Shown piece by piece: positions 41,163 to 59,758 of a DNA stretch of 64,000 nt. The notes beneath the pieces are model-generated. The model was not told the origin of the DNA, made no database searches, and saw only the letters and a program-made list of their open reading frames with translations. The DNA comes from Bacteroidetes bacterium GWF2_41_31. Lineage in GTDB: Bacteria; Bacteroidota; Bacteroidia; Bacteroidales; F082. The first letter of the stretch is position 1, and the number at the start of each line of letters is the position of its first letter. The DNA lies in NCBI GenBank assembly GCA_001769215.1, contig MEOL01000033.1, forward strand, positions 124,001 through 188,000, given 5' to 3'. Position numbers and translations under genes: made by a program.

Positions 41163-43913
41163 ATGGAAGCACCTGTATTAAAATATTTTCCCGTCCCTAC
41201 GTTTTTGATTTCGAAAAAATCCAGTGAAATCATACAACTTAATGACAAGGCAGCTGATCTTACCGGATTAGAAGTTGGAAGCTTATCAGGAATAAAAATA
41301 ACCAACTTTTTAAAAACCAAATTTCTAAAGCTTGGTGAATATAGCAATATTGATTTCAGGCTCAATGACCGAAAAACACTGAATGTTCATCTGGTGGTAC
41401 AGTCGTTAACTGAAAACCGCCAGAATTATTTGATAGTCTCCTTTTGGGAAGAGCCGAATAATGAGCTGGAAAAAGCAAGGCAAGCCATCATTGAAAGTGA
41501 GGAGCTATACCGGAAATTATTCAACTCATCCAAAGATGCCATTATGACCCTGGAACCACCCAGCTGGAAATTTACATCGGGCAATTTGGCTATTTTTGAA
41601 CTATTCAAGGTGAAGAACCTTAGAGATTTTCTTTCGTTGAAACCGTGGGAAATTTCTCCAAAAAAACAACTCGACGGAAGTGTTTCCATTGAGAAAGCCA
41701 AAGAGATGATTCAATTGGCCATGCATGAGGGTTCTCATTACTTTGAATGGGTGCACCAACGAAAAAACGGAGAACCCTTTCATGCAACGGTGTTACTTAC
41801 ACGAGTCGATCTGGCCAATAGGTCCTTCCTTCAGGCTACAGTGAGAGATGTTTCTGAGCAAAAGAAATCCGAGGAGCAATTAAAAGAAAATGAATTAAAA
41901 TACAGAACACTGGTTGAGGCCTCAAAGGACAGTATTTTTATCATTCAAGACGGACTTATTAAATTTGTAAACAGCGAATTGAAAAAACTTTCGGGGTATA
42001 CCGCTGAAGAAATTGTAGGGAAGCCTTTTGCTGATTTTATTGCACCTAAAGATGCTGATAAGGTGAAATCCTATTATCAGAAAAGGAAAAGTGGTAAGGA
42101 GGTGCCCTCTAAGTATGAATTGGTCGTTCGCTTAAAATCAGGTAAATTTATTCCTGTCGAAATTTCCGTCGCTTTTATTGATTTTCTGGGCAAACACTCC
42201 GAGATGGTGGTCATAAAGAATGTGACAGAACGTCGAAAACGAGAGGCTATCCAACGTGTTCTGTTCGAAATAACAAGAATCTCGTTTCACGACATCGGGT
42301 TGAAAGAGTATTTAGCAAAAATCCATGTGTTATTTGGACAACTCATCAGTGCCGAAAATTTCTATATTGCTTTATATGATAAAGTCAGCGATCTATACAC
42401 CTTCCCCTATTTCGTTGATGAATTCGATCACTTCGAGAGCGACCAAATGCTTTCATTAGAAGGTACTTTAACCGATTTCGTTCGAAAAACAGGAAAAGGC
42501 AGACTGATTACTGAAGAAACCGAAAAACAACTTTTTACAGAATCTGGTTTTAAGTTAATTGGAGAATATTCCCCGATTTGGGTAGGCGCTCCACTGGTCG
42601 ATTCTTCAACCAATGAAGTGATCGGTGTTATTGTCATTCAGGACTATAAAAATAAAGAAGCCTATTCACCTGACGACTTACTGACACTTGAAATTGTAGC
42701 CAGTAGCATAGGTTTGTTTATCGAACGTGTCAGAAGCAATCAAGACTTAAAACTCGCCAAGGAAAAAGCCATCGAAAGCGACCGGCTTAAATCTGCCTTT
42801 CTTGCCAATATGAGTCACGAAATCAGGACTCCGATGAATGGTATCCTGGGATTTGCCGAATTGCTAAAAGAACCCAGGCTGAGTGGTGAAGAACAACAGG
42901 AGTATATTGATATTATTGAGAAAAGTGGTCACCGGATGCTCAATATAATCAACGATATCATTAGCATTTCAAAAGTAGAATCGGGACTTATGGAAGTGAA
43001 TATATCGGCAACCAATGTGAATGAGCAGATGAAATACATTTACACCTTTTTTCGTCCGGAAACGGAAAAAAAAGGTGTCAGGTTGTTGTTAAACAATGAT
43101 TTAAGTGACACGGAAGCCATCATACTTACCGACCGTGAAAAAATATATGCCATTTTAACCAACCTGGTGAAAAATGCCATCAAGTTTACCAACAAAGGGT
43201 CAATAGAATTGGGGTGTAAAATTGTATCGATGATTCATGAATCATCGATACCAGCGATACAGTTTTACATAAAAGATACAGGAACGGGAATTCACAGTGA
43301 CAAGCAGGCAATTGTTTTTGAACGATTCAGGCAGGGCAGCGAATCGCTTGACCGCAATTATGAAGGTGCAGGATTGGGCTTGTCCATTTCAAAAGCCTAT
43401 GTGGAATTATTGGGAGGGAAATTATGGGTCGAGAGCCAGGAAAATGTAGGATCCACCTTTTTCTTTACAATTCCTTACCGGGTTGAAGCACAAGGGCAAA
43501 CCAGCTCCCGGAAGTTGCAAGTTACCGGATTACCTGCTGAAAAGGTTAAAAAACTGAAAATCCTGATTGCCGAAGACGACCCTACGTCAGAAGTATTCAT
43601 AACGCTGGTGTTAAAAAGCATGACTAAGGAATTGATCATAGCCAGAACGGGAACTGAAGCTGTGAATGCATGCCAACATCATCCTGATATCGACTTGGTG
43701 ATGATGGACATCAAAATGCCGGAAATGGACGGATATGAGGCTGCCAGACAAATCAGGCAATTCAATAAGGAAATCATTATCATTGCCCAAACCGCTTACG
43801 CATTGGTGGGTGATGGTGAAAAAGCAATTGCCGCAGGGTGCAATGATTATATTGCCAAACCAATTAATCGGGACCACTTAACCAACATGATTAAAAATCA
43901 TTTTAAAAATTAG
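41163..43913 (+). CDS. Hybrid histidine kinase (PAS-PAS-PAS-GAF-HisKA-HATPase-REC)
   Basis: 916 residues, no membrane helix, so a cytoplasmic sensor. PAS-like domains at about 1-95, 110-235 and 240-360, GAF about 375-540, HisKA with phosphoacceptor His552 ([11 protein letters not shown]), HATPase about 655-775 ([22 protein letters not shown]), and a C-terminal receiver about 797-914 (AEDD, DIKMPEMDGYE phosphoacceptor Asp, AQTA, KP). The HATPase carries the in-frame palindrome at 43224-43251, encoding SMIHESSI just before DTGTG. The receiver is near-identical in pattern to those of the next kinases, pointing to local duplication. No output domain. Confidence 0.93.
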   Translation: MEAPVLKYFPVPTFLISKKSSEIIQLNDKAADLTGLEVGSLSGIKITNFLKTKFLKLGEYSNIDFRLNDRKTLNVHLVVQSLTENRQNYLIVSFWEEPNNELEKARQAIIESEELYRKLFNSSKDAIMTLEPPSWKFTSGNLAIFELFKVKNLRDFLSLKPWEISPKKQLDGSVSIEKAKEMIQLAMHEGSHYFEWVHQRKNGEPFHATVLLTRVDLANRSFLQATVRDVSEQKKSEEQLKENELKYRTLVEASKDSIFIIQDGLIKFVNSELKKLSGYTAEEIVGKPFADFIAPKDADKVKSYYQKRKSGKEVPSKYELVVRLKSGKFIPVEISVAFIDFLGKHSEMVVIKNVTERRKREAIQRVLFEITRISFHDIGLKEYLAKIHVLFGQLISAENFYIALYDKVSDLYTFPYFVDEFDHFESDQMLSLEGTLTDFVRKTGKGRLITEETEKQLFTESGFKLIGEYSPIWVGAPLVDSSTNEVIGVIVIQDYKNKEAYSPDDLLTLEIVASSIGLFIERVRSNQDLKLAKEKAIESDRLKSAFLANMSHEIRTPMNGILGFAELLKEPRLSGEEQQEYIDIIEKSGHRMLNIINDIISISKVESGLMEVNISATNVNEQMKYIYTFFRPETEKKGVRLLLNNDLSDTEAIILTDREKIYAILTNLVKNAIKFTNKGSIELGCKIVSMIHESSIPAIQFYIKDTGTGIHSDKQAIVFERFRQGSESLDRNYEGAGLGLSISKAYVELLGGKLWVESQENVGSTFFFTIPYRVEAQGQTSSRKLQVTGLPAEKVKKLKILIAEDDPTSEVFITLVLKSMTKELIIARTGTEAVNACQHHPDIDLVMMDIKMPEMDGYEAARQIRQFNKEIIIIAQTAYALVGDGEKAIAAGCNDYIAKPINRDHLTNMIKNHFKN
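43224..43251. repeat. In-frame 28-bp perfect palindrome, copy 1
   Basis: Perfect over 28 bases, centred on GATTCATGAATC, arms GTATCGAT and ATCGATAC. It lies inside kinase codons between the IELG strand and the FYIKDTG strand. It is followed by CAGCGATAC, a partial repeat of the arm. See copies at 47300, 49474 and 59483. Confidence 0.9.
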
Positions 43914-44825: not shown

Positions 44826-47800
44826 ATGATAAAGACAACTAACTTTAATACCGAGGCATCCATTTTTCGCCAAAAGGCTGAAAACCTTTTGAAAACCAGG
44901 AAAATAAAACTGCCAAAGAAAATTTCTGATTCCGAGACCCAAGGCCTTTTTCGCGAATTGAAATTAAAGCAATTGGAACTCGAACTGATGCATGAGGAGC
45001 TTAAACACACCGAAACCACCCTGCAAACAAATCAGAAAATCCTACAGGAAAAAGAAGACGATCTTACATTACTCGCCAATACCTCAATTACCTTGTTGGA
45101 TTTTAACTCCATTGACGAGATTTATCATTTCCTGGGCTCTCAATTATTAAAGCTGTCCGGTGCCGATTACCTGTTGATTTCTGAATACAACGAAAAAAGC
45201 GGATCGACTTCACCAAAACAATGGTACGGCCTCAGTTCATCTATCGGGAAAATAGTGTCACTCCTGGGAAAGGATATCAGTCAAATTCAAATCCCGGTTC
45301 AGGATATTATAGTGCAGATGGATTTAGAATTAAGACAAAAAATCTATCATTTGGCGGGGGGATTGTACGAATTAACCATTCAAAAAGTACCAAAAACAAT
45401 TTGCCGGTCCATTGAAAAATTCCTGGGCATCCACGAGATATATTCAATAGGGTTCATTTGGGAAGGTTATTATTATGGAGGTGCCAGTTTTGGTTATAAA
45501 AGGGGAAATCAGATTAAAAAAACCGATTTGATTGAAGCAATTGCTAACCAGGCATCACTTTCGTTAAGAAGAAGGTACACCGAAAAATCGCTGATGGAAA
45601 GTGAAAAAAAATACCGGGGCATTTTTAAAAATATCCAGGATGTTTATTATGAAACCGATGTAGATGGAAGTATTCTGGAAGTGAGCCCTTCAATAGAACG
45701 CTTGAGCATTGGACAGTATACCAGGGAAGATTTAATAGGCAAGCCCATTTATGATTATTACAAAGATCGGGATGCCAGGTCCAAACTGATCCATGAATTA
45801 AAAAAAAGTCAGTGTGTTGTTGATTATGAAATTGAGTTGATTAACAAAGACGGTTCGTTGGTAAACTGCTCCATTTCAGCCGAGTTGATATTGGAGGCGG
45901 GTGGTAAACCTAAAAAAATCATTGGGACCTTCCATGACATCACCAAACGTAAACAAGCCGAGATTTCGCACCTTAAATTATCGCGGGCTGTGGAACAAAG
46001 CCCTGTTTCCATCATTATAACAGATGATAAAGGTATCATAGAATACGCCAACCAAAAAGTAGAAGAATTAACGGGCTATCAACTTGAAGAATTGATTGGT
46101 AAAAATCTGAGTATCTTTAGCTCAGGAGAAAAATCATCGTACGAATTTGAGCAACCCTGGAAGACCATTGAATCAGGCGCTGAATGGCGGGGTGAATTAC
46201 ATAACCGCAAAAAAAATGGAGAATTGTTCTGGGAACAAGCCTTCATCTCCCCCATCGTTAACGAAAATGGCGTGACTACACATTTCCTTGCCGTTAAAGA
46301 AGATATCACCGAGCGGAAAAGAACCCAGCAAATCCAACAGGTGATCTACCAAATATCAAATGCTGTAGTCATTTCTGAGAACCTTGAAGGGTTGATTAAA
46401 TTGATTCAAGAGGAGCTGAGTACCATCATCGACACTACGAACTTTTACCTGGCCTTATACGAACCTGATACCGATACCATTTCGTTGCCCTTTATAGCAG
46501 ATGAATATGATCATTTCAAATCACATCCTGCGAAAAACACCATCACCAATTACGTGATTAAAACGAAAAAATCGCTGTTGGCCAATTTAGATAAGATCCG
46601 CGAATTGGAAAGTTCGGGTGATATTGGACACTATGGAACTGATTCGCTGATTTGGCTGGGCGTACCGCTTGAAGTCGGAAATGAAGTAATTGGGGTGCTC
46701 GCGGTTCAGAGTTACACCAATCAAAATGCGTTTACTGAAGCGGATCAGAAAATGCTCGAATTTATTTCCGGACAGGTGAGTATGGCCATTCGTCGGAAAA
46801 AAATTGAGGAAGATTTGAAATTGGCCTTGACAAAAGCGGAGGAATCTGATCGTTTAAAATCTGCCTTTTTAGCCAATATCAGCCATGAAATCAGAACTCC
46901 TATGAACGGTATTCTGGGTTTTTCCACTTTGCTACGGGAGTCAGGACTCACCGGCGATCTACAACAGGAATATATCAGCATCATCGAAAAAAGTGGTGAA
47001 CGTATGCTCAATACCATCAACGACCTGATGGACATCTCGAAAATTGAAGCCGGACAAATGGATATGCTTGTTTCTGAAGTAAACATGAACGATCGAATCA
47101 ATAATATGCATCATTTTTTTAAACCGAGGTGCGATGAAAAGGGGATTCAATTCTTAGTCAGAAATAATTTATCGCCCGACCAATTCAAAATCAATTCGGA
47201 CCGAAAAAAAATTGATGCCATTTTGTCGAACCTGATCCTCAATGCCATCAAGTTTACACACCATGGGAGCATTGAGTTGGGCTGTAGCCTTGAAAGCACT
47301 GTATATACGATTCATGAATCGTATATACATTCAACTCATGAATCGTATGTACAGTGCTATGTAAAGGACACAGGCATTGGCATACCCCTCGATCGCCAAC
47401 ACGCCATTTTTGATCGTTTTGTTCATGCGGATATAGAAGACAGAGCAGTATACGAAGGAACGGGATTGGGGCTTTCGCTTTCAAAAGCATACGTTGAAAT
47501 GCTGGGCGGCACCATTTGGGTGGAAAGCACTCCCGGTGTAGGATCCACTTTCTTTTTTACTATACCCGGCAGTGTTGAGGCAACAACAGCAAAAAATACA
47601 GAAGAAGTAAAGGTGTCTGACATAAGTACCGAACCGTTTAAGAAACTCAATATTTTGATTGCCGAAGATGATCGAAATTCAGAACTGTTCCTGACCATCG
47701 CACTTGAAATGTGGACTAAGCAGTTGTTTATTGCCAGAACCGGGTTGGATGCCTTGAAACTCGTCCGTAATCACCCCGACATCGACTTGATCCTGATGGA

Positions 47801-48020
47801 TATCAGGATGCCCGACATAGACGGCTATGAAGCCACTAAACGCATCAGGGAATTCAACTCCGGAGTGGTTATTATTGCACAAACTGCGCATGGACTGTCC
47901 GGTGACCGGGAAAAAGCGATAGAGGCCGGCTGCAATGATTATATTTCCAAACCCATAAATCGAATCAGATTGTTGGAGGTGATCAACAGACATTTACGTG
48001 GTAAAATGACTAATTTTTAA
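44826..48020 (+). CDS. Hybrid histidine kinase (GAF-PAS-PAS-GAF-HisKA-HATPase-REC)
   Basis: 1064 residues, cytoplasmic. N-terminal coiled coil about 1-75 with [19 protein letters not shown], akin to that of the truncated kinase; GAF-like about 80-255, PAS about 258-375 and 380-500, GAF about 510-665, HisKA with His687 ([11 protein letters not shown]), HATPase about 790-910, receiver about 941-1058 ([15 protein letters not shown]). Its HATPase has the longest palindrome insert of the cluster (47295-47358), coding for HESY-type repeats before DTGIG. The stop is 16 bases before the next start, so the two are one transcript. Confidence 0.93.
47295..47358. repeat. In-frame composite palindrome, copy 2
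   Basis: Inner perfect palindrome of 30 bases (47300-47329) with the same GATTCATGAATC centre but different arms (TGTATATAC / GTATATACA). An outer pair, 47295-47317 with 47336-47358, matches in 22 of 23 positions and includes a third half-unit CATGAATCGTATGTAC. All of it is in-frame coding sequence of the kinase. Confidence 0.9.
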
Positions 48021-48036
48021 TTTGGACTTATCAACC

Positions 48037-50187
48037 ATGAAGATAAAATTTGGAATTTACCATCGGATCATAATGGTTTTAATCATCACAGGAGTCATCT
48101 TTCTTGGATTGTTTACCGCGCTTTACTTTTATCAACGAATGGAAGAACAATTCATTTTTGACGAAGCCAACAATCAATTTAGTAAGGAGGTAAACAGCAT
48201 CATATCACTTTATAGAAGGCAAACAAATCAAATTCTTGTCGATTATCGTGAATGGGAGGCCCTTGCCGAATATATTGACGAGTATGAAAAGTATTGGTTC
48301 GATGAAAACATCTCATCCATCTTGTACAGCTTTAATCTTGATTATGTAGGCGTATACGATTCCACTCTACAAACTATTCATGAAGCCTCGTTAGACGATA
48401 TTTTTTCGCGCGGGTTTATAGCGAAAGAGGCGCTATTAAAACTCAAAGAAAACCAGTTTATTAATTATTATCAGGTTACAAATGATGGGATAATTGAAAT
48501 ATGTGGAACCAAAATTCAAATATCAAATCATCTGACACCTTCAAAAAACCTGACAAGAGGATATTTTTTTGTGGCCAGAAGTTTTAATAAACCTTTATTG
48601 AATGAATTATCAACTATACTAAAAGCCCGTGTTCAGGTTATAAAACTGACGGATACCATTGCAATAGCCAATACTTATACGGTATATTCGTCCATTAAAC
48701 TCTCCGACTGGTCAGGGCGGCCGGTAGCAAAACTTGTATCTACCAGAGATTATTATGCCCTAAAACTATATGAGTACATGTCATGGCGCATGTTACTGAT
48801 CTTGTGGTCGTTATCAGTAACAATCCTGGTAATTATTCATTTTTCGTTAAATAAATGGATAATCCGACCCATGAAATTGGTTTCAAATATTCTTGAAACT
48901 GATGATTTGCTGCTTATACGTAAACTTAAACAAGAACCGGGAGAGTTTGAACATTTAGGAAAGCTCTTCGAAAAAAATATTACTCAAAAGAACGAACTCC
49001 GGATAGCCAAAGAAAAAGCGGAAAAAAGTGACCTCCAGAAATCCGCTTTTCTGGCCAATATGAGCCACGAAATACGAACCCCCATGAACGGTATCCTGGG
49101 TTTTACAGAGCTTCTTAAGGAATCAGATTTACAAGGAAAGGACCAGAAAAAATATGTTGAAATCATCGAAAAAAGCGGTGTCAGGATGCTTAATGTGATT
49201 AATGACATTATTAGCATTTCCAAAGTGGAATCGAACCAAATGGAGGTTTCCTTATCAGAAACAAATATAAATGAACAGGTTGATTATATTTACAACTTCT
49301 TTAATCCTGAAGTAGAGAAAAAAGGAGTAATTCTTATCTTACGAAAAGGACTTTCGTCAGATCAATCGGTTATTAAAACTGATGCAGAGAAATTGTACGC
49401 CATACTGACCAACCTGGTTAAAAATGCCATCAAATTTACCAATGACGGCACCATCGAATTTGGTTATAAACTGGTACCGATGATTCATGAATCATCAATA
49501 CAATTTTATGTGAAAGACACGGGCTCGGGAATTCAACCGCAACAACAACAAATTATTTTTGACAGGTTCAGGCAGGGAAGTGATATCCATAGCCCGGTTC
49601 GCGAAGGAGCAGGATTGGGATTGTCTATTTCGAAAGCCTATGTGGAAATGCTTGGAGGTAAAATATGGGTAGAGAGTGACTCCGATGGCAACCAGTCGGA
49701 GGAAGGAAGAGGCTCCTCCTTCTTTTTTACTATTCCGTACAAGACGACTTATAAAGAACAAATCAGGATCGATAATACAGGCTCCGGGGACAAATCAAAC
49801 GACCTGGCACAATCAATTGTTAAGCAACTGAAATTTCTAATCATCGAAGACGACCCAACATCAACCATGTTCGTATCCATTATCCTTAAAGAGTTCAGCA
49901 GGGAAATTTTAACGGCTGTAAATGGTTTGGATGGCCTTAACATCTGTCGGAAAAATCCCGATATTGATTTAATTCTGATGGATATTAAAATGCCACAAAT
50001 GAATGGGTATGAAGCCACCAAACAAATTCGTACGTTTAACAAAGAGGTCATTATTATTGCGCAAACTGCATATGGCCTGGCCGGTGATCGGGAAAAAGCG
50101 ATAGAAGCCGGGTGCAATGATTATATTTCCAAACCCATTAATCGAATCGAATTAATGGAGATGATCGATAAATATTTTAACAAATGA
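48037..50187 (+). CDS. Membrane hybrid histidine kinase (sensor-HisKA-HATPase-REC)
   Basis: 716 residues from the ATG at 48037; a TTG at 48022 would add five residues. Membrane helix about 9-31, a periplasmic sensor about 32-245 with [18 protein letters not shown] and a following Trp/Asn region like CHASE4 domains, membrane helix about 247-268. HisKA His344 ([11 protein letters not shown]), HATPase about 445-580, receiver about 597-714 ([15 protein letters not shown]). The HATPase has palindrome copy 3 (49474-49501). It follows the 1064-aa kinase closely. Confidence 0.92.
49474..49501. repeat. In-frame near-palindrome, copy 3
   Basis: 18 bases perfect around the centre (49479-49496), extended to 28 bases with two mismatched pairs. 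It codes PMIHESSI immediately before FYVKDTG. The decay of the outer arm fits an older, drifting copy. Confidence 0.88.
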
Positions 50188-55481: not shown

Positions 55482-55862
55482 ATGAGCGACACGAAATCAA
55501 CTTTTGAAACACTTGAAGTATGGATTCGATCCAGAAAATTAAGAAATCACTTCGCGAAACTTTCCAAAGATTTACCCTCTGATGAAAGATACAGGTTGAA
55601 GGATCAGATGATCAGAGCTTCCCGCTCAGTAACGGCAAATATTGCAGAAGGATATGGACGATACCATTACCAGGAAAATATCCAGTATTGTAGACAAGCC
55701 AGAGGATCACTGTATGAGTTAGTTGATCATTTATCAGTAGCAATTGATGAGGAATTTATCAACAATGATACCTATGAAAGCACTAGATTAGATATCTTTG
55801 AAATTATACAAATGTTAAACGGTTATATAAACTATCTTAAAAGCAGGAAACAGAGTGGTTGA
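55482..55862 (+). CDS. Four-helix-bundle protein (23S rRNA intervening-sequence/S23 family)
   Basis: 126 residues, all helical. Family motifs: FETLEVWIRSRKLRNHF, LKDQMIRASRSVTANIAEGY and QARGSLYELVDHLSVA. Members of this family occur inside 23S rRNA intervening sequences or as stand-alone genes; the Avd protein of diversity-generating retroelements is related. No retroelement is seen here. It sits between two copies of an octamer-repeat hairpin, and its own stop codon is inside the second copy, so it may have moved as a unit with them. Confidence 0.9.
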   Translation: MSDTKSTFETLEVWIRSRKLRNHFAKLSKDLPSDERYRLKDQMIRASRSVTANIAEGYGRYHYQENIQYCRQARGSLYELVDHLSVAIDEEFINNDTYESTRLDIFEIIQMLNGYINYLKSRKQSG

Positions 55863-55966
55863 GTAGTTAAGTAGTAAAAATCAGTGTAAATTTTAAGGCA
55901 ATGAATAAATTAAAACGATTAATAATGTGCATCAAAATTCCCCCACTCAACTACTTAACCACTCAA
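55853..55966. repeat. Octamer-repeat hairpin element, copy 2
   Basis: Three octamers (55853-55876, AGTGGTTG-AGTAGTTA-AGTAGTAA), a ~65-base middle sharing both blocks with copy 1, then the complement CACTCAACTACTTAACCACTCAACT (55943-55967). The stop TGA of the four-helix-bundle gene (55860-55862) lies in the first octamers. Confidence 0.85.
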
Positions 55967-55990
55967 CTCCCCCCCCTTCACAATGAATAA

Positions 55991-58900
55991 ATGATGAAAA
56001 AAATTCTCGCTATAGATGACCTCCCCGATAACCTGATTACTATTAAAGCAATCATTAAAACATATTTACCTGATCATCAAATAATAACAGCCTCCTCCGG
56101 AGCCGAAGGAATTAGATTGGCCGCAAAAGAACAACCTGATATTATTTTGCTTGATATTATCATGCCGGGAATGGACGGGTATACAGTTTGTGAAAAGCTA
56201 AAATCCAATCCGACTACAAGCCGAATACCGATCCTGATGGTCACTGCCATTAAATCCGATTCTGAGAGTCGGGTAAGAGGCCTGGAAACAGGTGCCGATG
56301 CTTTTTTGACGAAACCTTTCGACATCCCTGAATTCGTTGCCCAGATTAACGTATTGTTTCGTGTTAAAGAATCGGAGGATCGCTCAATAAGTGAGAAAAA
56401 CAATGTGAATCAAATCGTTCAGGCTCGGACGCAGGAACTCTTACTTGCCAATGAAAGACTCCGAAAGGAGATAGAAGACCGGAATCGCCTACAGCAAAAA
56501 TTAATTGAAAGCAAAGATCGCCTCGAAACGATCATTAAAACTTCTCTTGATGGGTTTTGTTTGATAGACCTACAGGGAGAACTGATTGAGGTAAATGAAA
56601 CCTATTGCCGCATGAGTGGATATAGTCGCAAGGAATTACTCACCATGAACGTTTGCGATGTTGAAGCAATCGAAACTCCCATCACTATTAAAGGGCATAT
56701 CAGCAACATCCAAAAACTGGGCGAAACCCGGTTCGAAACTAAACACCGACGTAAGGATGGATGCTTTTTCGATGTGGAGGTTAGTATACAATACCAATCG
56801 AATGAAGGGGGACGGCTTGTTACCTTTTTAAAAGACATTAGCGAACACAAGAAAGCTAAACAGGAACTTATTGAAAAAGAAAACCGCTATCGGACATTGT
56901 TCAACGTGTCTCCCAGCGGAATACTGTTAATGGACATGAATGGCGAAATTATTGATGTAAACGAGTCGTTTTGTCGGTCAGTTTTGTACGAAAGAAATGA
57001 ACTAATTGGGAAAAATATTCTTTTCCTCGTCCCGGAAGAAAACATAGGTAATGTACCTGTTCATATACAAGAACTGGAGCAAGGAAAGATTTTAAAGCAT
57101 GTTGTTAAAAACATAAAAAAAGACGGCACCTTGTGTGATATGGAGTTGATGGAATCGTTGGTCACCTTACCTGATGGCAGAAGCGGGATACTATCAGCAG
57201 CAAACGATATCACTGAACGCCGAAAAACTGAAAACGAATTGCGCCAAAGTTATGAACAATATAGGATGTTACTCGACTTTGCCCCGGATGCCTTTTTCCA
57301 CGGAGATGCCGAAGGAAATTTTATTGCCGCCAATATTGCTGCTAACGAACTTACCGGCTTTAGCCGTGATGAGTTACTGAAAATGAACATGAAAGATTTA
57401 TTTTCTGAAATGCAACTGAAAAACCAGCCATTGAATTATCAATTACTAAAAGAGGGGCAAAAAATCAAAGCAATAAGGGAAGTAATCAAAAAGGATGGCT
57501 CCACCTTGTTTGTTGAGATGAATTCAAAAAAAATGATTAATGGCTCCTACCAGTCATTTTTTAGTGATATTACCGAGCGTATAAAGGCTGAAGAAGAGAT
57601 GATAAAAAGCCGGGAGCGAGCCAGGTTACAGAGAAACGCCATCACCCGGATAGCGCTTGATGACCTGGTTTCTATTGGCGACTTAAACGGAACTTTCCAA
57701 ATGCTAACCAAGGAAATGGCGACTACCCTCCAAGTCGAAAGGGCTGGTATTTGGCTCTTTTCTGACAACAAAACTGAATTGCGTTGTGCCTCACTATACC
57801 ATGGCATTTCCCAAAAGCATATTCCTGGATCGAGCTTGATAGTAGGTGATTTTCCACGCTATTTTGAAGCCATTCAAAATGAAAGCAGGGTTTTTACCAG
57901 TGATGCCCAAAACGATCCGCGTACCAGTGAGTTTACTGATGCTTACTTTTATCCGCTTGGCATTACTTCACTGCTTGATGCCTGTGTACACATTGAAGGT
58001 GAGTTGATGGGCGTGGTATGTTTTGAACACTGTAGCGAAAAACGCAACTGGCACACGGATGAAGAATCGTTTGCCAGCACGGTGGCATCCATTGTGGCCC
58101 AGGCACTTATCAACAATAAGCGAAGACAGGCTGAACAATCATTGCGCGAAAGTGAATTAAAGTTCAGGCGACTTTTTGAAGATCTTGGTGATGCTGTGTT
58201 TGTGACAGAAATTGTTGGCGAGAACGGTAAAATTTTAGAGGTCAATCTGGCAGCCGAAAAGCAAACAGGGTACACTAGGGCAGAACTTTTAAACAAAAAT
58301 ATTATCTGGGATATTGGTATTGGCAGTAGTTCAGAAATAGGCATCGAACTTTGGACTGATCACCTCTTAAAAGGGGAGAAAGTAAACGTGACCGAAAAAA
58401 AACGAAAAAAAGACGGAACCGAATACTGGACAGAAGTGGTGGTTACCCCCATTGAATATAAAGGAAAAAAAGCCAGTTTATCTATTAACCACGATATTAC
58501 CGAGAGGAAACGTGCCGAACAAATTCAACGGGTATTATATTATATATCAAAGGGGGTTACCTCAACAGATAATCTGAAGGAGTTTATCACACTGATCAGG
58601 CAAGAGCTGGAAAGTATCATCGACACGAGAAACTTCTTCGTTGCTTTCTACAGCGAAAAAACGGATGAACTTTCGTTTCCCGTTTATTTTGATGAAAATG
58701 ACCATTATACCAACGCTCCAGCCCGAATGACGCTAAGCAAATATGTGATTGAAACAAAAAAGCCTCTATTGGCTAAAAATGACTTTAAAAAGAAACTGGC
58801 CTCAGAAGGTAAATTAATATTTGAAGATAGCCGCTCAAAGGTGTGGTTAGGTGTGCCTCTGAAAATAGAGGGCAGGGTAACAGGCGTGCTTGTATTGCAA

Positions 58901-59758
58901 AGTTATACCGACGAAAACGCTTATACTGAATCAGATTTAGGGATGTTCGAATTTATTGCCAATCAGATTGGTATTGCTATTGATCGAAAAAAAGCGGAGG
59001 AAGACTTATTTGTGGCTCTGGAAAAAGCGGAAGAAAGCGACCGGCTCAAATCGGCATTCCTGGCCAACATGAGCCACGAAATACGGACACCCATGAACGG
59101 GATACTGGGATTTGCCGAATTGCTGAAACGGCCCGGTTTGAATAGTGATAACCAGAAAAAATACATCGACATCATTGAAAAAAGCGGCAGGAGAATGCTC
59201 AATATCATCAACGACATTGTCGATATTTCAAAAATCGAAGCCGGGCAAATGAATGTATTTATATCTAGCACCAATATCTTCGAACAAATTAACGAAGTAT
59301 TTACCTTTTTCAAACCTGAAGCCGCGTCGAAAGGTATCCGTTTATTGCTGGATGTCCCGTTATTCCTAAGGAATGAAACAATCAATACCGATCATGAAAA
59401 ATTATTCGCCATTCTGACCAACCTGGCAAAAAATGCCATTAAATATACCCATGAAGGGAAAATTGAAATGGGGTATAAAACGGTATCGATGATTCATGAA
59501 TCATCGATACATGAACCATCGGTACTGTTTTTTGTGAAAGATACAGGCATCGGTGTGCCGGTCGACAGACAAGCAGCCATTTTCGATCGGTTTATACAAG
59601 CCGATATTGCCGACACCCAAGCCTATGAAGGCGCGGGTCTGGGACTAGCCATTACTAAAGCATACGTGGAAATGTTGGGTGGGAAAATTTGGATCGAGAG
59701 CCCTCCTGCCGGGCAGGAATGTGGCTCCGCGTTTTTCTTTACAATCCCGCAGCTGTGA
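55991..59758 (+). CDS. Histidine kinase with N-terminal receiver (REC-PASx3-GAF-PAS-GAF-HisKA-HATPase)
   Basis: 1255 residues, cytoplasmic. Receiver at 1-125 (AIDDLPDN, DIIMPGMDGY Asp, TKPFD), a coiled coil, PAS about 175-290, 300-415 and 425-535, GAF about 545-715, PAS about 725-845, GAF about 855-1010, HisKA His1029 ([11 protein letters not shown]), HATPase about 1130-1255. There is no C-terminal receiver, so its layout is reversed compared with its neighbours; its receiver may accept phosphate from them. HATPase has palindrome copy 4 (59483-59525). A second ATG three bases later is possible. Confidence 0.92.
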   Translation: MMKKILAIDDLPDNLITIKAIIKTYLPDHQIITASSGAEGIRLAAKEQPDIILLDIIMPGMDGYTVCEKLKSNPTTSRIPILMVTAIKSDSESRVRGLETGADAFLTKPFDIPEFVAQINVLFRVKESEDRSISEKNNVNQIVQARTQELLLANERLRKEIEDRNRLQQKLIESKDRLETIIKTSLDGFCLIDLQGELIEVNETYCRMSGYSRKELLTMNVCDVEAIETPITIKGHISNIQKLGETRFETKHRRKDGCFFDVEVSIQYQSNEGGRLVTFLKDISEHKKAKQELIEKENRYRTLFNVSPSGILLMDMNGEIIDVNESFCRSVLYERNELIGKNILFLVPEENIGNVPVHIQELEQGKILKHVVKNIKKDGTLCDMELMESLVTLPDGRSGILSAANDITERRKTENELRQSYEQYRMLLDFAPDAFFHGDAEGNFIAANIAANELTGFSRDELLKMNMKDLFSEMQLKNQPLNYQLLKEGQKIKAIREVIKKDGSTLFVEMNSKKMINGSYQSFFSDITERIKAEEEMIKSRERARLQRNAITRIALDDLVSIGDLNGTFQMLTKEMATTLQVERAGIWLFSDNKTELRCASLYHGISQKHIPGSSLIVGDFPRYFEAIQNESRVFTSDAQNDPRTSEFTDAYFYPLGITSLLDACVHIEGELMGVVCFEHCSEKRNWHTDEESFASTVASIVAQALINNKRRQAEQSLRESELKFRRLFEDLGDAVFVTEIVGENGKILEVNLAAEKQTGYTRAELLNKNIIWDIGIGSSSEIGIELWTDHLLKGEKVNVTEKKRKKDGTEYWTEVVVTPIEYKGKKASLSINHDITERKRAEQIQRVLYYISKGVTSTDNLKEFITLIRQELESIIDTRNFFVAFYSEKTDELSFPVYFDENDHYTNAPARMTLSKYVIETKKPLLAKNDFKKKLASEGKLIFEDSRSKVWLGVPLKIEGRVTGVLVLQSYTDENAYTESDLGMFEFIANQIGIAIDRKKAEEDLFVALEKAEESDRLKSAFLANMSHEIRTPMNGILGFAELLKRPGLNSDNQKKYIDIIEKSGRRMLNIINDIVDISKIEAGQMNVFISSTNIFEQINEVFTFFKPEAASKGIRLLLDVPLFLRNETINTDHEKLFAILTNLAKNAIKYTHEGKIEMGYKTVSMIHESSIHEPSVLFFVKDTGIGVPVDRQAAIFDRFIQADIADTQAYEGAGLGLAITKAYVEMLGGKIWIESPPAGQECGSAFFFTIPQL
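59483..59525. repeat. In-frame 28-bp perfect palindrome with extra half-unit, copy 4
   Basis: 59483-59510 is identical to copy 1 over all 28 bases. It is followed by CATGAACCATCGGTAC (59510-59525), a near-repeat (14 of 16) of its right half, which can also pair with the left arm. The codons read MIHESSIHEPS before the FVKDTG strand. Confidence 0.9.

Follow-up and report, generated by a model that had tools for sequence, protein, structure and literature searches.

The palindromes within four neighbouring histidine kinase genes of Bacteroidetes bacterium GWF2_41_31 are double-foot, GTAG-type repetitive extragenic palindromes (REPs) of 28 nt with the form GTA-N8-TCATGA-N8-TAC, and at orthologous sites of related genomes their two arms change in pairs more often than independent substitution yields. 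The four genes lie in a stretch of 64,000 nt (contig MEOL01000033.1, positions 124,001 to 188,000), which as a whole is called the window here, and the palindrome of the second gene, referred to as copy 2, is nested and 64 nt long. We consider it likely that both the homogenisation of the arms and the growth of the palindromes result from template switching on a REP that was captured in a tolerant protein loop.

The paralogous copies of a single genome are no proof of compensation when taken alone, but the orthologues of sister species show it. The genomes G001, G002 and G003 carry copies at places orthologous to those of the source genome G000, namely in the gene of a REP-associated tyrosine transposase (RAYT), in the adjacent intergenic DNA, in an oxidoreductase gene and in syntenic kinases, which keep their order on contigs C33, C13 and C269. 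Orthology was taken from synteny and flank identity, and the genomes are few and divided into many contigs. When the alleles at nine orthologous sites of the four genomes were joined by a minimum spanning tree, 12 changes were paired, 11 were one-sided and one was double but unpaired. Scattering the same numbers of substitutions independently gave a mean of 0.73 paired changes and a maximum of 6 in 20,000 trials, which the observed number exceeds. In kinase 5, the flanks of G001 and G002 are 100% and 97% identical; in the REP between them, three paired positions differ, and so does a single unpaired one. The sole intergenic site with variation, beside the RAYT gene, carries a paired change too (GTATAACC/GGTTATAC), and in G002 this intergenic copy has become a perfect palindrome of 54 nt. 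Each of the 11 paired changes in coding DNA replaces one amino acid or more, as P>P with S>W in the oxidoreductase does, and in 8 of them both residues are altered. Because every coding paired change alters residues, protein conservation is not the cause.

The pairing extends beyond the element. When 14 kinase hairpins and 8 flanking bases were aligned without gaps, 94.6% of the cells held standard pairs and 13 of 20 pairs had two-sided changes. The covariation score is 0.513, as compared with 0.217 after shuffling and no more than 0.147 after sliding the partner; relatedness is not taken into account by these shuffles, and as the paralogues are related, counting at orthologous sites is the safer of the two tests. 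Covariation reaches adjoining kinase codons outside the 28-nt element (ATT/AAT, ACT/AGT, ACC/GGT), and among the flank pairs are AGCACT/AGTGCT in kinase 2 of G003, as opposed to GGCATT/AATGCC in G001, and also AAAACC/GGTTTT. The mere jumping of a whole element would not produce such covariation. The original prediction, made from the sequence of the window, had held that, over and above the protein sequence, it is the symmetry that is kept or repaired, and both the 12 paired changes and the covariation outside the element support this. Mutual independence of the arm substitutions, which it had named as the result that would speak against it, was not found in the four genomes, though the 11 one-sided changes exist.

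The palindromes are assigned to the GTAG-type REPs because their arms pair although the search left them free, because they are associated with a RAYT, because they match the description of the REPs of RAYT subclass 2.4, and because the same family is found in many phyla. G000 has eight exact copies of the pattern (reversed control 0), and all eight TCATGA-centred 28-mers of this genome are perfect or near-perfect palindromes; these genome-wide counts are from pattern searches that fixed GTA, TCATGA and TAC and left the N8 arms free. There are 10 exact copies each in G001 and G003 and 4 in G002. The eight copies of G000 are located around and inside the RAYT gene, in the oxidoreductase gene and in several hybrid histidine kinases, there in one and the same HATPase beta-hairpin. 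Their length of 28 nt fits the 20-40 bp repeated palindromes by which GTAG-type REPs are recognized, and their number is low for a REP family. The foot is GTA...TAC in every copy, as fixed by the search, with T, A, C or G as fourth base in this genus, and related copies in other phyla mostly have GTAG...CTAC. Scanning 84,980 species genomes with a GATTCATGAATC-centred pattern gave at least 120 stretches, and 63 of the 83 occurrences examined are perfect 28-mers. The commonest form among the matches listed is GTAGGGGCGATTCATGAATCGCCCCTAC, which occurs in many phyla, and GTAGGGTTGATTCATGAATCAACCCTAC is found in Microcystis. Inside long frames (L110-L189), GTAGGGGCGATTCATGAATCGCCCCTAC is read as VxxIHESxx, for example VGAIHESPL. 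An element restricted to the genus was also considered and is ruled out by the GATTCATGAATC-centred form in many phyla; yet among 100 close relatives only the genus had it.

This REP lineage would be served by a putative RAYT that is encoded elsewhere in the same genome, on contig C8. REP copies are found there at 99228, 99527 (within the gene) and 99893, and a more diverged palindrome with 3 mismatches to the pattern lies 0.6 kb beyond, at 100558. The gene is closest to the NCBIfam family REP_Tyr_transpos (2.7e-18, but below the equivalog cut-off) and matches Y1_Tnp at 2e-8, above the cut-off. It possesses HuH (DHIH/DHFH), WQ and YIQDNP motifs, with D replacing the first N of YIxNNP and the N of NH[IFV]H, and in four species an in-frame REP lies between the HuH and Y motifs. 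For RAYT subclass 2.4, double-foot REPs are described that lie within tnpA_REP in frame, in the part between HuH and Y (Quentin et al. 2018, PMC6006769; group 4 of Bertels); the Bacteroidetes are a main host group of this subclass (PMC6006769). Judged by its motifs and internal REP, the C8 gene has the features of this subclass (HuH, WQ, YIxNNP, internal REP). Unlike the REPs of subclass 2.4, which have a GT[AG]G foot only, those described here have GTAT, GTAA, GTAC or GTAG, occur in low copy number (about 8) and have most of their coding copies in histidine kinases. In the same family, RAYT genes from other genera contain palindromes as well, and in a RAYT-like frame of Calditrichaeota (L152) the loop that follows the HuH motif likewise holds a REP (HVHGIIMIMENDGSVEAIHESPLHK). 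In G003, the RAYT frame (L034) has one TAG stop and may be decaying; its REPs are nearly palindromic still. In G004, a fifth genome of the genus, pattern and gene searches detected neither RAYT nor palindromes. The oxidoreductase gene is molybdopterin/NuoG-like (L007:705-2696) and carries its REP at G000:C52:8074-8101; no length difference was seen relative to outgroups at about 45% identity, which suggests replacement rather than insertion.

The core GATTCATGAATC occurs 7 times in the genome (reversed control 0) and 4 times in the window, where the shuffle mean is 0.33 even with one mismatch allowed. The copies in the window are the following.

43224..43251, + strand: copy 1, perfect 28-nt REP with arms GTATCGAT, in kinase 1
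47295..47358, + strand: copy 2, nested 64-nt palindrome in kinase 2, with its 28-nt REP core at 47301-47328
49474..49501, + strand: copy 3, imperfect 28-nt REP with 2 of 14 pairs broken, in kinase 3
59483..59510, + strand: copy 4, perfect 28-nt REP with arms GTATCGAT, in kinase 4
59511..59525, + strand: extra 15-nt half-unit of copy 4, ATGAACCATCGGTAC

Reading the sequence of copy 2 directly confirms what had been predicted for it: TGTATATACGATTCATGAATCGTATATACA is a perfect palindrome over the 30 nt of 47300-47329, of which simple arithmetic lets one expect about 6e-5 per 64 kb by chance. Of the 23 positions in the outer arms (47295-47317 and 47336-47358), 22 pair, and an extra half-unit is contained within about 47330-47353. 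The gain of a half-unit that had likewise been claimed for copy 4 is real and corresponds to ATGAACCATCGGTAC, and copy 1 is followed by a partial extra unit, CAGCGATAC, at 43252-43260. The outer arm AGCACT...AGTGCT of copy 2 is shared with a simpler 40-nt palindrome, AGCACTGTACATACGATTCATGAATCGTATGTACAGTGCT, in the orthologue of the sister species G003 (L063). As a DNA strand, the 64-mer folds with -20.5 kcal/mol (z -8.9), and none of 200 shuffles was equally good. Just upstream of kinase 4, at 55858-55967, there is also an 18-nt inverted repeat with 94% complementarity and a 74-nt spacer.

In all four neighbouring kinases a TTCATGAA-centred palindrome is found at the same place of HATPase_c, between the N-box segment (NAIKFT..GxIExG) and the FYVKDTGxG segment. 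Domain searches gave the following organization.

41163..43913, + strand: kinase 1, a PAS/GAF-HisKA-HATPase_c-REC hybrid histidine kinase
44826..48020, + strand: kinase 2, a hybrid histidine kinase with HATPase_c at residues 792-914
48022..50187, + strand: kinase 3, CHASE4-HisKA-HATPase_c-REC
55991..59758, + strand: kinase 4, REC-PAS/GAF-HisKA-HATPase_c

An AlphaFold2 model of the HisKA-HATPase region of kinase 2 (mean predicted local distance difference test score 82.7) places strands at residues 145-154 and 172-179, and most of the palindrome-encoded residues lie in the low-confidence tip between these two strands of one beta-hairpin. This tip is tolerant of length changes, and the hairpin motif has 32 to 55 residues in relatives. 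The net length gain in REP-bearing kinases is 12 nt and in frame. Several kinases and species have acquired additional half-units, one example being VSMIH x3 - ESSIH x2 in kinase 4 of G001. In kinase 1 of G001 (L078), three roughly 30-nt repeats of a TGTATATACGAATCATGATTCGTAT unit result in the 55-residue motif. Kinases with REP-like palindromes also occur in five other Bacteroidales families, with different centres and at the same codon of the same hairpin.

Kinase of G194: GTAAAGACAGATGATCATCTGTCTCTAC palindrome; the genome has 46 matches to a related pattern
Kinase of G110: degenerate GTAGAGACGCAATGCATTGCGTCTCTAC
Kinases of G225 and G309 and three kinases of G354: REP-like palindromes at the same hairpin codon

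Either these represent independent arrivals, or there was one ancient arrival and the sequence was later exchanged. Searching the literature for REPs within histidine kinases brought up nothing relevant.

In the mechanism that we infer, a REP would have become fixed in a hybrid kinase, at the tip of one HATPase beta-hairpin, and would then have spread with kinase duplication. Being a near-perfect inverted repeat, it would act as a hotspot of replication template switching, at which point changes are transferred from one arm to the other, neighbouring bases become part of the arms, and now and then a half-unit is added. This arm-to-arm copying would keep the arms complementary while their sequence, their length and the encoded peptide drift. 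For copy 2, the C>T in the left arm and the G>A in the inner right arm would be one copied pair and the third half-unit a gain event. As far as can be judged from the sequences, this one process would account for the paired changes, the flank covariation, the residue changes and the half-unit growth.

Alternatively, selection could keep the DNA hairpin, as a recognition site of the RAYT or as a landmark of replication or the nucleoid, and compensation could proceed by ordinary two-step mutation. The TCATGA centre and the GTA/TAC ends indeed vary least of all parts, whether a copy is coding or non-coding, as for transposase recognition, although the search patterns fixed these bases, and G004, the only genome of the genus without RAYT, has no such palindromes. 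However, such selection explains neither the perfect extension into gene-specific flanks and the half-unit growth nor the equal maintenance in kinases, oxidoreductase, RAYT and intergenic DNA, and a fixed REP copy brings no host-level gain from being mobilisable, so that we think this explanation unlikely. That selection acts on a hairpin in the kinase mRNAs, for translation pausing or mRNA stability, is very hard to believe. The 124-nt RNA around copy 2 folds with a z of -6.1, but any REP folds well as RNA, the intergenic REP and the unrelated genes behave like the kinases, and the broken pairs in mRNA sense, 6 A.C and 5 G.U (small and partly non-independent numbers), do not show the G.U preference that is expected of a selected RNA stem. 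The lack of a match in an Rfam scan of the window from 40 to 64 kb also counts against it. Among the mechanisms that the original prediction had offered, template switching thus fits better than selection on an mRNA hairpin, and its interpretation as a whole is supported in part, the RAYT-linked REP identity and the copies outside the kinases being additions to it.

Both arms could also change at once if whole palindromes are replaced by other REP copies, through RAYT transposition into REPs or ectopic gene conversion. In G003, the K3 allele (GTAGCAAC...) is similar to that of K5, and the K2 allele of G000 is identical to the RAYT-gene allele of G000; exchange between REP copies may explain a few such alleles. 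But most new paired alleles (S1 of G002, S2 of G003, S4 of G002, K4 of G003, K5 of G001) have no second copy in their own genome and were therefore not copied from another REP, the K5 allele of G001 retains the internal CAATG of its orthologues, and the covariation goes on beyond the 28-nt unit. We regard replacement as improbable. Several points nevertheless weigh against template switching. After strong selection on a DNA hairpin and two independent mutations, the paired pattern would look no different, the four genomes provide few independent events, which are partly shared, and the compared genomes are draft assemblies, several of them metagenome-assembled. At K2 of G000, the identity with the RAYT-gene allele makes exchange between REP copies possible. 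A clean 28-nt insertion, which was considered as well, is not demonstrated, as the kinases gained 12 nt and not 28 and the oxidoreductase does not differ in length from its outgroups.

Intragenic GTAG/CGTC REPs, including the Rickettsia palindromic elements, are known from many genes, often of DNA repair, and mostly lie at differing sites, with the exception of recB in two Xanthomonas species (Di Nocera et al. 2013, PMC3733652). The palindromes described here are likewise translated in frame within conserved proteins; unlike those REPs, they occupy one HATPase hairpin in many paralogues and several families, and their arms co-evolve between orthologues. The correction of quasipalindromes by template switching has been described in E. 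coli (PMC7202029), in yeast coding genes, where switching between inverted-repeat arms homogenises the arms and changes residues (PMC8604942), and for RNA stems, where it was proposed to create and maintain compensated stems (PMC8794818). Homogenised arms with amino acid changes as a by-product are common to these cases and ours, but in ours a former mobile element serves as substrate at many sites, and the effect is deduced from orthologues. Perfect inverted repeats in functional coding sequence are also kept in the mitochondria of Nematomorpha, where they are much longer, up to 284 bp (PMC6649704).

It is a speculative and improbable extension that the HATPase hairpin is a standing home for REPs of any lineage-specific type, and that the palindrome is a built-in mutator of the length and sequence of this ATP-binding-domain loop, in which case DNA symmetry would drive a part of kinase evolution, which may be adaptive. 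The covariation of paired bases is routinely taken as proof of a selected RNA structure. In this bacterial case, a former mobile palindrome in protein genes displays textbook covariation at the cost of changes like S>W, and a mutational explanation fits better. As copies exist in paralogous kinases across several species, the need of selection for compensatory changes becomes directly testable, in a protein loop that has repeatedly been occupied by lineage-specific REPs.
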